Below are positions 2,085 through 39,067 of a DNA stretch of 39,067 nt, piece after piece. Position numbers and translations under genes: made by a program. Positions within the stretch are counted from its first letter, which is position 1. Every line of letters begins with the position of its first letter. Source of the stretch: a virus; IMG/VR virus record IMGVR_UViG_3300047322_000329, positions 1 through 39,067 of that record. The stretch is one strand, 5' to 3'. The notes beneath the pieces were generated by a model. The model did not search any database, had not been told where the DNA came from, and worked only from the letters and a program-made list of their open reading frames with translations.

Positions 2085-2161
2085 CTCCTGTTCGATCGTT
2101 GTCGGAAGTCCCGACACAGGGAACACTACGCGCGCAATTACGCCCGGTCAACCCGTACTTT
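2085..2161 (-). promoter_or_regulatory. CGTACGG-family promoter module for the DUF932 gene
   Basis: Minus strand: box AAAGTACGGGTT (2150-2161, one mismatch to the family box), -35 TTGACC (2146-2151), 17-bp spacer, -10 TAGTGT (2123-2128). Six bases after the -10 a perfect 6-bp stem with a 5-base loop begins (2100-2116), followed by GATCGAACAGGAGG (2085-2097). The -35 overlaps the stop codon of the gene at 2148-2384. This is the copy closest to a consensus sigma-A promoter. Confidence 0.85.
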
Positions 2162-4212: not shown

Positions 4213-4287
4213 CTCCTGTTCGATCAGTGGTCGATCGACCACGCCGTGATGATGAGCCGAATTGCGCCGGGTTGGAACCCGTACGTT
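4213..4287 (-). promoter_or_regulatory. CGTACGG-family promoter module
   Basis: Minus strand: box AACGTACGGGTT (4276-4287), -35 TTCCAA (4272-4277), 17-bp spacer, -10 CATCAT (4249-4254). Exactly six bases on begins a perfect 16-base palindrome GTGGTCGATCGACCAC (4227-4242), then TGATCGAACAGGAG (4213-4225 plus flank). The box starts 14 bases after the stop of the upstream gene. Confidence 0.8.
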
Positions 4288-4301: not shown

Positions 4302-4535
4302 CTAGGACCGCCCCGGCAACCCTTCCATGTCCGGCGCCGTGATCCGGTAGACGCGATCATCGCCGTTCAACAGCCGTTCGAAGTACGCGCCGGCGTGCTT
4401 CGCGCACATGTTCGTTGAGAAGCCGCGCGTGTCGTCACCTTGAGTGACTAGCGTCGTGACGCACGCCCGGACAGGTGCGGTGCAAACGCCGGCCGTGGCG
4501 TTGCAGTAGGCATAAGCCGGCCGGTAGACCTTCAT
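4302..4535 (-). CDS. Small Cys/His-cluster protein, 77 aa
   Basis: Cys11, Cys18, Cys25, Cys44 and His47, ending in C-x2-H (MCAKH), resemble a treble-clef or zinc-knuckle fold like those in the genes at 30476, 35336 and 34. Start ATG 4535 is in an ATGA overlap with the upstream gene. No family name can be given. Stop TAG lies just before the next promoter box. Confidence 0.7.
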   Translation of the reverse strand: MKVYRPAYAYCNATAGVCTAPVRACVTTLVTQGDDTRGFSTNMCAKHAGAYFERLLNGDDRVYRITAPDMEGLPGRS

Positions 4536-4858
4536 GACGCCACCGCCGCGAAGGAACACGGCTCGCCGTCACATTCCTCATGTTCGAAGCAGCCGGCCCA
4601 TTGCTCGCGATCCCGCGCGAGGGACCGACAGAAGGCGTCGTAATCGACGTTCAGCGGGTCCTCACGCAACCATGACTCGCGCGCGAGGGTGTACGTGGTG
4701 TACGCGTCCCCGTTGCGGATGTCCTCGGTGATTTCCTCGGACCGTTGGTGGGACCACGGCCGCGCGTCGCAATCGAGACACCGCATGATCGGCTCGCCGT
4801 CCGAGTCGAGGCCGGCGTCGTTGTACGGGTGATCGAAGTTGCCATCGGGGAGAAACAC
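4532..4858 (-). CDS. Cys-rich acidic hypothetical, 108 aa
   Basis: GTG start at 4858 with CGGAGG upstream. CLDC (Cys27, Cys30) and a C-terminal cluster CFEHEECDGEPC suggest metal binding; the centre is an acidic helix with many Asp/Glu/Arg. No family recognised. It is the first gene of a two-gene operon. Its ribosome-binding site is one arm of a 13-bp inverted repeat whose other arm lies within the promoter, so translation should depend on where the transcript began. Confidence 0.75.
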   Translation of the reverse strand: MFLPDGNFDHPYNDAGLDSDGEPIMRCLDCDARPWSHQRSEEITEDIRNGDAYTTYTLARESWLREDPLNVDYDAFCRSLARDREQWAGCFEHEECDGEPCSFAAVAS

Positions 4859-4859
4859 A

Positions 4860-4976
4860 GGTGCCTCCGAAGTTTTGATCGTGTCGCCCGGTCGGTCGGA
4901 GTTCAGTGATGACCGACGTTCCAACCGGGCAATGCGAACACTAAGCCTTCGGAGGCACCCGAGCAACCCGTACGAT
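4860..4976 (-). promoter_or_regulatory. CGTACGG-family promoter with RBS-sequestering repeat
   Basis: Minus strand: box ATCGTACGGGTT (4965-4976), -35 TTGCTC (4961-4966), 17-bp spacer, -10 TAGTGT (4938-4943). Seven bases on begins a 10-bp stem with one G-U pair (arms 4921-4930 and 4886-4895). The ribosome-binding segment CTTCGGAGGCACC (4860-4872) is perfectly complementary to 4947-4959 in the spacer. That arm is absent from RNA made here but present in read-through RNA from the lysis genes. Confidence 0.85.
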
Positions 4977-4989
4977 CGGGTCACATGGA

Positions 4990-5286
4990 CTAGGACGTTG
5001 GGGGATGGATCGTCCGCTGAATGACCGTGTTGACGTTCTGTGACAGCGCGCCGGCGAGCACGCCCACAAGCACCGCGCCGAGGATCGCGACACCCGTCAA
5101 CGGCGCGACCGTGACCACGGCGAACGACACGGACAGGACAACGCCGATCACCACGGCGATCGCCGGCGCCCACCGGTCGAAGTGTTCCGGCGTGAACAGG
5201 GACCGCGCGACGTTGAGGATCACGCCCACGATCACCGCCGTCCCGGTCGTTGTGGCGAGCATCGCCACGGCGTCTTGTGAGGTCAT
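4990..5286 (-). CDS. Putative holin, three membrane segments
   Basis: 98 residues with membrane segments at about 8-27 (AMLATTTGTAVIVGVIL), 40-60 (AIAVVIGVVLSVSFAVV) and 62-82 (LTGVAILGAVLVGVLAG), short polar termini and no signal peptide. Lying directly after the endolysin gene with a GGAGG site before ATG 5286, it fits a class I holin that permeabilises the membrane to release the lysin. Three further small membrane proteins precede the lysin, so which one is the timing holin is not settled. Confidence 0.7.
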   Translation of the reverse strand: MTSQDAVAMLATTTGTAVIVGVILNVARSLFTPEHFDRWAPAIAVVIGVVLSVSFAVVTVAPLTGVAILGAVLVGVLAGALSQNVNTVIQRTIHPPTS

Positions 5287-5289
5287 GGA

Positions 5290-6132
5290 TCAGCCTCCCG
5301 TCTTGAGTGCGAGCACCGCCGCGGACGCCGCGTCGCGTGCGTCGTTGATCCCCTTTTGCTTCATTGGCGAGCCGTCAGCCGGCGGACGGTTGCCGATGGA
5401 TCGGTTGATCGCGTCCAATTCGTCGTTGCGCGCCGCGATGTAGTGCGAGTGGTCCGGCACCGGGACGGTCGTTCCGCCAAGCGCCTCCAATTCGAACGGG
5501 GAGCCGTAGAAGATGTCGCCATCGATTGCGTGATGCGTGCCGTTGGACGTGAACCGGAACGGCCCGTACTGCCACAGCGGGGGACGGTGGGAGCCGCCGA
5601 ACCCAACCGGCGGGACCGGCGGGAACGGTGGCGCGTTGTTGCGGTAGTCGGCTTGCCACACGTAGTCGAACCCGAGTGACCGGAAGTCCGGGTTGCCGAG
5701 CCGGAACCACGTGCCGTCGTTCGAATACGCGCCGAGCATGTGGACCGGGTGGACGTCACGAAACGCCTTCACCCACTGTTCGATCGACTTGACCGAGGGA
5801 TGGTTGGTGATCGGCCCTGTGTTGTCATCTTCGATGTCGAGCGCCGTGATGCACCCGTCCACGCCTCCGGTGGACTGAACGCCCGTCATGAACGTCTCGG
5901 CTTGCGCCTTGGCGTCGATCGCCTCCACCAAGTAGCCGTAACCGCCGAACGCGTCAAACCCGCCCTTCGCCGTGGCCCGCTTGCGCGTCAGCGCCCACGC
6001 CGTGTCCGGTTGAGTACCGAGACACACGCGAGCGATCAGAAACTTCATGCCGGCGTCGAGCATCGCCCGCCGCGCCGATACAGGGAGGCCGCGCCGCCAT
6101 TGGTTCGCGGAAATGTCGCCGCCTTGGATCAT
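5290..6132 (-). CDS. GH25-type endolysin (lysozyme)
   Basis: 280 residues resembling glycoside hydrolase 25 muramidases: N-terminal GGDISANQ (Asp6), the catalytic-strand motif ALDIEDD (Asp99, Glu101), AYSNDG, WQYG at 187-190 and IDGDIF at 203-208. GH25 enzymes cleave the beta-1,4 bond between N-acetylmuramic acid and N-acetylglucosamine in peptidoglycan. The last 60 residues are a linker-like tail with no recognisable cell-wall repeat. No signal peptide, consistent with holin-dependent export. ATG 6132 has GGGAG upstream. Confidence 0.85.
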   Translation of the reverse strand: MIQGGDISANQWRRGLPVSARRAMLDAGMKFLIARVCLGTQPDTAWALTRKRATAKGGFDAFGGYGYLVEAIDAKAQAETFMTGVQSTGGVDGCITALDIEDDNTGPITNHPSVKSIEQWVKAFRDVHPVHMLGAYSNDGTWFRLGNPDFRSLGFDYVWQADYRNNAPPFPPVPPVGFGGSHRPPLWQYGPFRFTSNGTHHAIDGDIFYGSPFELEALGGTTVPVPDHSHYIAARNDELDAINRSIGNRPPADGSPMKQKGINDARDAASAAVLALKTGG

Positions 6133-6154: not shown

Positions 6155-6514
6155 TTAGTTGCCGCCTATCGTACGGCGCCGCCACTTCGGCCGGCGCGGT
6201 CGAATGTGACGGAGGCACCAATTGAACGTCAGTCCGTGCGCGAGCGCCATCACAAGGAACAGCCCGAACCGCCCCACGATCCGCGGCCACAGGGGATCGC
6301 CGGCCGCAAATGCGCCGATCGTTTGCAGCACGTAGAACAGGAACCCGGTCCACGCCACGGACAGCGCCGACAGCCACGCCAACGGATAGTGCGCCGGGAT
6401 GCGTTCGAACGCCCAATCCGGAGCGAACAGCGCGCCGGCCATGGACAGGACCACGCCGGCAAGGATCGCCATGAGCGCCGTTTCCAAGGACAGGTTGACG
6501 AGCAGGACGTCCAC
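6155..6514 (-). CDS. Membrane protein of the lysis region, 119 aa
   Basis: Three to four hydrophobic segments (about residues 3-30, 45-68 and 78-98) and a strongly basic C-terminus (RPRRPKWRRR). GTG start at 6514, immediately after the previous gene. The topology would suit a holin, antiholin or other membrane effector. No family is recognised. Confidence 0.7.
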   Translation of the reverse strand: MDVLLVNLSLETALMAILAGVVLSMAGALFAPDWAFERIPAHYPLAWLSALSVAWTGFLFYVLQTIGAFAAGDPLWPRIVGRFGLFLVMALAHGLTFNWCLRHIRPRRPKWRRRTIGGN

Positions 6515-29858: not shown

Positions 29859-30226
29859 TACGCCTTCGGCTTCCGCCGAGACTTGGCGAGCCGTTCCCGC
29901 GCCGCCGCGATCCGCTCCGCCTTGACGTCCGGGTCCATGTCGGCCCACCGCTGTCGAGCGCGGGACTTGCGCCCCACCTTGACCACGGCGTCCCGCTGCC
30001 GGTAGATCGCCTCGGCGACCTTCGGCGGGAGCACCATCCGCACGGAGCCTTCCGCGCCGACTTGCTGAATGAACACGTACAACCCTTCCTCGGTCGAATA
30101 CGTTTGGACGACGTGCGCCGACGAATTGCCGAGCATGGGTTGGACGGTCGCGATCGTGGTTGGCCGCGTCTTGTGAACGCCGGGGATGCCATCCATCGAT
30201 CCGATGATCCGGTCGAATGTGTCCAA
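29858..30226 (-). CDS. Hypothetical DNA-associated protein, 122 aa
   Basis: TTG start at 30226 is supported by GGAGG seven bases upstream, in the same leader arrangement as other operon-first genes. A beta core (GLYVFIQQVG, VRMVLPPKV) is followed by a basic helical tail (RARQRWADMD, then KAERIAAARERLAKSRR). It heads the operon running down to the nuclease and terminase genes. A regulatory or nucleoid-like role is possible but unproven. Confidence 0.65.
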   Translation of the reverse strand: MDTFDRIIGSMDGIPGVHKTRPTTIATVQPMLGNSSAHVVQTYSTEEGLYVFIQQVGAEGSVRMVLPPKVAEAIYRQRDAVVKVGRKSRARQRWADMDPDVKAERIAAARERLAKSRRKPKA

Positions 30227-30313
30227 GGGTCGCCTCCGTTTCCGATCGTCGTGGCCCAAGGGGACCACGCCCTAAGACTACAACGCCGGCGTCGCGACGG
30301 GAACCCGTACGAT
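30227..30313 (-). promoter_or_regulatory. CGTACGG-family promoter module
   Basis: Minus strand: box ATCGTACGGGTT (30302-30313), -35 TTCCCG (30298-30303), 17-bp spacer, -10 TAGTCT (30275-30280). Five bases on begins an 8-bp stem with one G-U pair and a CCTT loop (30250-30269), then GATCGGAAACGGAGG. The spacer contains the palindromes CGTCGCGACG and ACGCCGGCGT. Confidence 0.8.
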
Positions 30314-31334: not shown

Positions 31335-31413
31335 CTCCTGTTCGATCGAGTGGATCGGGTGCCGATCCGTGAGGAACGTACACCCGATCCGAGCAGCTTC
31401 CAAGCCGTACGTT
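31335..31413 (-). promoter_or_regulatory. CGTACGG-family promoter module
   Basis: Minus strand: box AACGTACGGCTT (31402-31413), -35 TTGGAA (31398-31403), 17-bp spacer, -10 TACGTT (31375-31380). Exactly six bases on begins GGATCGG-CAC-CCGATCC (31352-31368), then GATCGAACAGGAG (31335-31347). The spacer also holds GGATCGGGTG, complementary to CACCCGATCC in the leader. Confidence 0.85.
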
Positions 31414-32559: not shown

Positions 32560-32623
32560 CTCCTGTTCGATCGGGTGTGGAATGAGAGTGCGCCACCCTC
32601 GCGAGTGGCGCAACCCGTACGTT
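32560..32623 (-). promoter_or_regulatory. CGTACGG-family promoter module, no leader hairpin
   Basis: Minus strand: box AACGTACGGGTT (32612-32623), -35 TTGCGC (32608-32613), 17-bp spacer, -10 CACTCT (32585-32590), then GATCGAACAGGAG (32560-32572). This copy alone lacks a stem-loop at the predicted transcript start. It instead has a perfect 8-bp dyad TGCGCCAC/GTGGCGCA (32589-32596, 32605-32612) across the spacer. Confidence 0.8.
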
Positions 32624-32888: not shown

Positions 32889-32969
32889 CTCCTGTTCGAT
32901 CGTTCGTGATCGGGTGTCGATCACAGGTGAAGGATGCGCCTCCGGTGAGGGAGGCGCAAGCCGTACGTT
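32889..32969 (-). promoter_or_regulatory. CGTACGG-family promoter module
   Basis: Minus strand: box AACGTACGGCTT (32958-32969), -35 TTGCGC (32954-32959), 17-bp spacer, -10 CATCCT (32931-32936). Exactly six bases on begins the stem GTGATCG/CGATCAC with loop ACACC (32906-32924), then GATCGAACAGGAG (32889-32901). A 9-bp dyad (32935-32943, 32950-32958) fills the spacer. Confidence 0.85.
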
Positions 32970-32973
32970 CGTC

Positions 32974-33327
32974 CTAGATCGGTTGGTACTGTGCGGGTCG
33001 AGCGCGCTTGTCCTCGGCGATCCGGTCAACGAGCGCGGACGCCTCATCGATCGTCTTGCACGTGCCGTCCGCTACCAACTCTTGCGCCAATTGCAGCCGG
33101 CCCACGAACGCCGCAATTCGCGCGCGCCGTGCCTTGGTTGCCATGACGGAGCCGACAACGGCCGCGCGGGTTGCGAAGTGGTCATCGAGCATGAACGAGC
33201 GTTCCGCTTCGACCTTCCACAACTCCCACTGTCGGCCGGCGAACCCGGCTTCATTCCGGACCGCAAGGTACGTCTCGCCGTCAACGGTGAAACGGTACGT
33301 GCCGGCCGGACCCTTGTGGAATTTCAT
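32974..33327 (-). CDS. Hypothetical, 117 aa
   Basis: N-terminal beta sheet (GTYRFTVDGETYLAVRNE) and WELWKVEAE, then helices. ATG 33327 after AACAGGAG. The frame stays open upstream through the whole leader to ATA at about 33480, but no normal start occurs there. Unrecognised. Confidence 0.8.
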   Translation of the reverse strand: MKFHKGPAGTYRFTVDGETYLAVRNEAGFAGRQWELWKVEAERSFMLDDHFATRAAVVGSVMATKARRARIAAFVGRLQLAQELVADGTCKTIDEASALVDRIAEDKRARPAQYQPI

Positions 33328-33501
33328 TGGGTGACTCCTGTTCGATCGGGAGCGATCGCCCCGGAGGGACCGGTACGCCCTCCGCGCCGTTTCGGGACTG
33401 CTAACGCTCCTGCGACCTTGCGGCCCTCCGTGCGTGTCGTCTCGCCCTAGTTTGGCGGCCCGCTTGCGCGGGATTGAAGGTATGCCCTCCGGTTTCGATC
33501 G
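33328..33501 (-). ncRNA. Unassigned long leader RNA
   Basis: About 170 nt with no gene between the +1 hairpin and the coding start. It contains an orphan ribosome-binding segment (GATCGAAACCGGAGG, near 33486-33500) with no start codon after it, a GNRA-capped hairpin CCCGC-GCAA-GCGGG, three copies of GGAGGGC, a stem GGAGGG/CCCTCC, and a final CGATCG-CTCC-CGATCG hairpin before the real site (33335-33347). It may be a regulatory RNA or a decayed small gene. No known riboswitch is recognised. Confidence 0.35.
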
Positions 33502-33567
33502 TTGCGATCAGTGATCGATCGCAAGGTGAACACTACAGGATCGGCGCCACGATCCAAGCCGTACGTT
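33502..33567 (-). promoter_or_regulatory. CGTACGG-family promoter module
   Basis: Minus strand: box AACGTACGGCTT (33556-33567), -35 TTGGAT (33552-33557), 16-bp spacer, -10 TAGTGT (33530-33535). Five bases on begins the perfect 8-bp stem TTGCGATC/GATCGCAA with a 7-base loop (33502-33524). It lies 5 bases after the upstream stop. Confidence 0.85.
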
Positions 33568-38689: not shown

Positions 38690-38949
38690 CACAGCCGCTC
38701 GCACCAACAGGGATCGATCGAGTAAGCGATCCGCAACCACTCAAGGCGCCGCAACGCCAACGCGTTCCCGTTCGCCGGGATCGCCTCGCACGGCATCACC
38801 GGTTCGATGTAGCGGACGGTCGCGTACTCCACCATCCGCCGGGACCAATGGAGCCGGCGCGCAACGTCGTTCAGGGTGCCGGGTTCGATCAGGGACGCGA
38901 ACAGCCGTTGGATGTCGCCGTTGTGAGTCGTCAAGCCGGTTGCCGGCAT
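38686..38949 (-). CDS. Small HTH-containing protein, 87 aa
   Basis: TLNDVARRLHWSRRMVEYA at about residues 24-42 fits a helix-turn-helix. The C-terminal ALRRLEWLRIAY is a second helix. The ATG at 38949 falls at the edge of the 15-bp block that is inverted between the contig ends (see 13-27); in the other orientation the next in-frame ATG is five codons on. Its N-terminus lies in the junction, so only the right-hand copy is complete. Might be an early regulator. Confidence 0.6.
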   Translation of the reverse strand: MPATGLTTHNGDIQRLFASLIEPGTLNDVARRLHWSRRMVEYATVRYIEPVMPCEAIPANGNALALRRLEWLRIAYSIDPCWCERLW

Positions 38950-39067
38950 GACGGTCAGGTGTTGCGCGATGTGGACCGCTCGCGGGAGCGCCGTGAATGG
39001 AACCGGCAATGGTCCCGGTCCGGGGGGATCAGGACGCCGCACGACTTGTTGTATTGGGTGAGCCACC
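38949..39067. repeat. Terminal direct repeat, right copy
   Basis: Exact copy of 28-146. It contains a 5'-truncated second copy of the small Cys/His gene (38955-39067, minus), which is an artefact of the linear cut rather than a second gene. Confidence 0.95.

Follow-up and report, generated by a model that had tools for sequence, protein, structure and literature searches.

A phage promoter whose spacer is complementary to the downstream ribosome-binding site, within an eight-copy promoter cassette family

The ribosome-binding site (RBS) of a 108-codon phage gene, at 4860-4872, and a segment at 4947-4959 inside the -35/-10 spacer of its predicted promoter are exact complements over 13 bases, constituting a perfect inverted repeat. 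The original prediction had pointed to this complementarity, and the observation is confirmed. Based mainly on RNA folding, we propose with moderate confidence that region 4973-4858 is a promoter cassette that doubles as a read-through insulator of the 108-codon gene. The promoter belongs to a standard cassette present in eight copies, and this cassette family is a more robust finding than the read-through interpretation of the 4973 copy.

The window analysed here, 39,067 bases with a GC content of 64-66%, corresponds to an entire virus record. A direct terminal repeat of 143 nt (4-146 and 38925-39067, 97% identical) suggests that the genome is complete and either circular or terminally redundant. 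The genes that could be identified are encoded on the minus strand. PHROGs assignments include terminase, portal, capsid, tape measure, endolysin and holin, and genes for a DUF932 protein, a RecE-like nuclease and RecT were also identified. About 30 nt past the stop codon of the DUF932 gene, a perfect 15-bp inverted repeat with an 8-nt loop is found (980-1017), possibly a terminator without a classical U tract. A megablast search of positions 1-25000 against a phage collection revealed no close relative, and no relatives were found for the 108-residue gene product, the lysin or a 217-residue early protein. The TerL relatives present in viral contigs are distant (at most about 62% identical); their structural genes align with those of the window, other regions mostly do not, and the 4973 region is absent. 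DUF932 relatives are at most 35% identical. A scan for a promoter followed by a hairpin in four relatives identified none.

The 4973 promoter and its transcripts

The elements of the 4973 region, all on the minus strand, are as follows.

5290-6132, minus strand: endolysin gene (PHROGs)
4990-5286, minus strand: holin gene (PHROGs), with its stop codon 17 nt ahead of the 4973 cassette
4961-4973, minus strand: cassette motif GTACGGG and -35 hexamer TTGCTC (4966-4961)
4944-4960, minus strand: 17-bp promoter spacer, holding the anti-RBS arm GGTGCCTCCGAAG (4947-4959)
4938-4943, minus strand: predicted -10 hexamer TAGTGT
4885-4931, minus strand: 47-nt hairpin at the 5' terminus of the local RNA, from the predicted +1 (leader z -3.8)
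4860-4872, minus strand: downstream arm CTTCGGAGGCACC, containing the Shine-Dalgarno (SD) sequence GGAGG (4868-4864)
4852-4859, minus strand: U-rich UGUGUUUC immediately past the stem, overlapping the GTG start; a possible terminator tail
4532-4858, minus strand: gated gene of 108 codons with a GTG start at 4858, belonging to no known family

The promoter, TTGCTC-17-TAGTGT, is predicted to be of the sigma70 type, and the upstream arm lies wholly inside its spacer. Assuming that transcription starts seven bases past the -10 hexamer, +1 is predicted at 4931, in agreement with the promoter position and the start at about 4931 proposed originally. The 47-nt hairpin at +1, the eight-copy cassette and the U-rich stretch past the stem had not been recognized in the original prediction. 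The gated gene has a GC3 value of 0.82, similar to other genes. Its stop codon overlaps the ATG of the next gene (4535-4302), and because of this overlap that gene may also be affected through coupling. Modelled without an alignment, the 108-residue protein gave no usable structure (pLDDT 39). We also considered whether CTTCGGAGGCACC at 4947-4959 might be the RBS of a gene on the plus strand, but rejected this because inspection by eye showed no start codon within a usable distance.

We compared the predicted folding of RNA starting at the local promoter with that of RNA entering from upstream. The read-through RNA (4990-4840) folds with an energy of -75.1 kcal/mol (z -5.4; a second computation gave -7.2), and the SD sequence is located within a long stem capped by the inner hairpin. 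RNA starting at 4931 retains the inner hairpin only, which begins at its first base. Opening the region from SD to start costs 7.5 kcal/mol in the local RNA and 19.5-21.3 kcal/mol in the read-through RNA, a difference in the direction that had been anticipated for the two transcript forms. A point against the proposal is that in the local RNA the SD sequence is itself partly paired with the beginning of the coding region (P unpaired 0.07). The corresponding local costs across the other cassettes are 4.7-8.4 kcal/mol. None of the other seven cassettes displays a comparable gain on read-through; the largest, +5.3 kcal/mol, was obtained for the 2158 copy when 45 nt of upstream RNA were included, and disappeared with longer upstream sequence. 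In a 750-nt read-through RNA, all 13 pairs of the outer stem form with a probability of at least 0.995, and shifting the 5' end of the RNA from 4960 to 4945 drops the opening cost from 19.8 to 6.7 kcal/mol. As the holin stop codon (4990-4992) lies some 30 nt upstream of the end of the arm at 4959, a ribosome finishing holin synthesis should not melt the stem.

Taken as a mechanism, RNA begun at about 4931 would carry a 5'-terminal hairpin and a usable RBS, and the 108-codon gene would be translated. RNA arriving from the lysin and holin genes would carry the spacer arm as well, which would pair over 13 bp with the RBS around the inner hairpin and block 30S binding. The outcome would be that late mRNA is kept from expressing the first early-type gene, and this is the likely role because the 4973 cassette is the first one past the late lysis genes. 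We infer read-through from lysin and holin into the cassette on the grounds that no intervening terminator was found, a consensus terminator scan from holin to the cassette having detected none. Folding supports this reading well and the evidence as a whole supports it partly. The analysis establishes the arrangement of the sequence elements, how rare it is statistically, the folds predicted for it and the cassette in eight copies; promoter activity, the translation block in the cell and the early/late timing are, like every functional statement made here, predictions. When a phage genome is transcribed from a single strand, some means is needed to prevent late RNA from expressing early genes again. 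If the proposal is correct, it would represent a compact solution in which the promoter spacer, a stretch of DNA otherwise free in sequence, carries the information that silences the RNA.

An eight-copy promoter cassette

The cassette consists, in order, of GTACGGSTTn, a 17-bp spacer (16 bp in one copy), TAnnnT, six bases, a hairpin and the RBS GATCGAACAGGAGNCACC. The pattern GTACGGSTT-N21-YANNNT matches the window at seven sites, where 0.01 would be expected, and every match is on the minus strand; the eighth copy is the one with the 16-bp spacer. The sequence GATCGAACAGGAG occurs ahead of start codons in six exact copies, with variants in the remaining cassettes. Besides the 4973 copy, the members are the following (SAS-like refers to the mycobacteriophage element compared below).

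2100-2158, minus strand: cassette copy; promoter 2123-2158, +1 hairpin 2100-2116, SAS-like RBS 2085-2097, DUF932 gene from 2078
4227-4284, minus strand: cassette copy; promoter 4249-4284, +1 hairpin 4227-4242, SAS-like RBS 4213-4225
30251-30310, minus strand: cassette copy; promoter 30275-30310, +1 hairpin 30251-30268, TTG-start gene at 30226
31352-31410, minus strand: cassette copy; promoter 31375-31410, +1 hairpin 31352-31368, SAS-like RBS 31335-31347, unsequestered
32578-32620, minus strand: cassette copy without a +1 hairpin; strong spacer hairpin, SAS-like RBS 32560-32572
32906-32966, minus strand: cassette copy; promoter 32931-32966, +1 hairpin 32906-32924, strong spacer hairpin, SAS-like RBS 32889-32901
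33503-33564, minus strand: cassette copy with the 16-bp spacer; promoter 33530-33564, +1 hairpin 33503-33523

An RNA hairpin starts from the predicted +1 in seven of the eight cassettes, with stem sequences that differ from copy to copy. Six copies have a perfect stem, 6 bp or longer, that starts at offset 0 or -1 of the predicted +1 (background 0.051, binomial P 5e-7). The 4973 copy has an imperfect, longer hairpin beginning at the same base, and only the 32620 copy is devoid of one. The combined leader z value is -6.4 (Stouffer), which is overstated, the z values of random windows having a spread of 1.34 rather than 1. Because their sequences differ among copies, the stems at +1 fit RNA structure better than a common operator. 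If correct, the cassette is a defined unit with a hairpin at +1 that may affect mRNA stability.

Dyads are also found in spacers. Those at 32585-32620 (GCGCCAC..GTGGCGC, z -4.5) and 32931-32966 (GCGCCTCC..GGAGGCGC, z -5.1), both on the minus strand, are perfect hairpins; they would be able to form in read-through RNA only, where they could act as terminators devoid of a U tract. A single operator common to the spacer dyads was ruled out, as the sequences differ among copies. Taking these spacers together with the anti-RBS arm, one may suppose that the spacers hold a second, RNA-level code insulating neighbouring units, with single cassettes tuned by spacer structure. In such a code, the anti-RBS arm at the late/early border would make its gene deaf to late read-through, while the strong hairpins of the two other spacers may end or block upstream RNA. 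We consider this generalization doubtful.

The original prediction had further described a weaker, 10-bp version of the RBS complementarity in the module at 31375-31413. The pairing itself exists, between spacer sequence GGATCGGGTG and CACCCGATCC (31352-31361), but its partner is not the RBS: CACCCGATCC makes up the 3' arm of the hairpin in the 5' leader, some 13 nt upstream of the SD sequence. The longest complement between promoter and RBS in this module is shorter than 5 nt, and the SD opening cost is unchanged (7.0 kcal/mol in local RNA and 6.6-7.1 kcal/mol in read-through RNA). The module thus does not share the mechanism.

Concerning the surroundings of the cassettes, several of the cassette starts (31418, 32638, 32974, 4302 and 4990) adjoin the stop codon of the upstream gene. 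The TAG lies within CTAGGAC/CTAGTCC, so that the stop codon belongs to the repeated sequence. Between the +1 of the 33564 cassette and the gene at 33327 lies a leader of about 190 nt (33335-33523, minus strand), which contains a variant RBS-like GGAGG without an obvious nearby start and the hairpins CCCGCGCAAGCGGG and GGAGGG..CCCTCC. It is possibly a non-coding RNA or a regulated leader; an Rfam search that included this leader gave no match. When viral contigs were searched with the module patterns, chance matches in coding regions and one promoter-like site were obtained. The latter is on an otherwise unrelated phage contig (L088) that has no protein in common with the window, and consists of a single CGTACGGCTTGACA-17-TAGTGT just past a TAG stop codon, followed by CCCC..GGGG (6406-6443, minus strand).

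Other explanations for the 13-bp stem

The complementarity may be accidental or a by-product, the real feature being only the cassette of promoter, +1 hairpin and RBS. A perfect 13-nt inverted repeat is nothing rare in a sequence of 39 kb: about 0.5 are expected, by estimate, in a blind scan of this length for repeats within 300 bp, and one such repeat is unremarkable. In addition, the complementarity was picked out of many features at the initial reading, and the anti-RBS arm is present in only one of the eight cassettes, a fact that also counts against an insulator. The significance of the repeat comes from its position, not its mere presence. When the promoter region was shuffled with dinucleotides preserved, 13 nt complementary to the RBS were reached in 2 of 40,000 shuffles, corresponding to a chance of 5e-5 for the 4973 module and about 4e-4 across the eight modules. 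Of the upstream complements at the 42 minus-strand SD/start sites, this is the only one of 13 nt; the next longest is 10 nt and most are 5-6 nt. Moreover, the arm covers the SD sequence exactly, is located at the late/early boundary, and faces an RBS that departs from the cassette consensus inside the paired stretch. Coincidence is an explanation that we regard as unlikely.

The second explanation is that the 13-bp stem is mainly a transcription terminator of the late lysis transcript, with read-through RNA ending at the start codon. Local RNA, without the upstream arm, would pass, and termination and silencing could coexist. Termination stays a serious rival because the U-rich stretch directly follows the stem, and it would have the same outcome as translational silencing. 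The GC-rich stem is followed by UGUGUUUC, with 5 U in 8 nt the most T-rich of 46 SD/start sites, and no further terminator-like site was detected on the minus strand close to where the lysis genes end. On the other hand, with a 74-nt loop that contains an inner hairpin, the stem lacks the compactness of a terminator, its U tract is broken up and falls within codons, and the consensus terminator scan did not report it. We assign termination as the main function a rather low probability. The read-through insulator remains our preferred reading, with the further point counted against it that its long-range stem must form co-transcriptionally.

It is very improbable that the arms act as DNA, forming an operator whose half-sites, set far apart, bind a phage regulator, as has been proposed for the inverted repeats of cluster K ESAS promoters: one half-site does fall between the -35 and -10 hexamers, a suitable place for repressor action, and ESAS repeats overlap the promoter, but the arm sequence is absent from the other seven cassettes and the half-sites are 74 bp apart, one being an RBS. 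Equally remote is a structure serving mainly as a processing or 3'-end stability element of the lysis mRNA, such as an RNase III substrate, which would account for a long, strongly paired RNA (about -73 kcal/mol) directly past the holin stop codon and leave unexplained why the arms exactly match the RBS and the promoter spacer.

Comparison with known systems

Insertion sequences such as IS10 and IS50 likewise hide the RBS of their transposase genes in read-through RNA. As for phages, the parallel to T4 drawn in the original prediction is real and documented. The T4 genes e, soc, 49 and I-TevI remain silent when read from longer transcripts, where the SD sequence is paired (PMC3014915, PMC2988022), and translatable RNA comes from late promoters situated in the 5' strand of the stem, the effect on e being 100-fold (PMC3014915). 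The RBS of mobE in phage Aeh1 is sequestered in the same manner in longer upstream transcripts (PMC3014915, PMC2988022). As in T4 e and I-TevI, the inhibitory stem has the 4973 promoter embedded in its 5' strand, local RNA from the predicted +1 lacks the arm, and the upstream arm is predicted, here by folding, to sequester the SD sequence in longer transcripts. Unlike in T4, the promoter is of the sigma70 type, the phage is GC-rich, and the arm resides in the -35/-10 spacer; the timing is likely inverted, with late read-through onto an early-type gene; and the local RNA starts with a hairpin, its promoter being one of eight cassette copies. The mechanism is already known from T4 e, soc and I-TevI, and it is the setting that is new.

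The cassette family resembles the SAS/ESAS elements of cluster K mycobacteriophages, an iterated repeat of promoter and RBS (PMC3203893, PMC11373665), in its iterated sigma70-like promoter with 17-18-bp spacing and in the repeated RBS-containing sequence just ahead of non-structural gene starts. The sequences differ: the 13-bp SAS found near start codons in cluster K is GGGATAGGAGCCC, whereas the repeat here is GATCGAACAGGAGNCACC, which is unrelated. Furthermore, the 17-bp inverted repeats of the Adephagia ESAS overlap -35 and -10 and have one conserved, operator-like sequence, whereas those identified here start at +1, vary by copy and fit RNA hairpins. Judged by these sequences, the cassette is not a member of the cluster K SAS/ESAS family despite the similar overall plan. 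It may be a functional parallel to these still unexplained elements.

The leaders also recall the 5'-terminal hairpins of the ompA/papA type, described in work cited in PMC3997798 as stabilizing mRNA. In common with the hairpins as described there, the stem begins at the first base of the transcript, here the predicted +1, and is followed by a less structured RBS. What sets the present hairpins apart from that description is that they are repeated across a phage genome within one standard promoter cassette.
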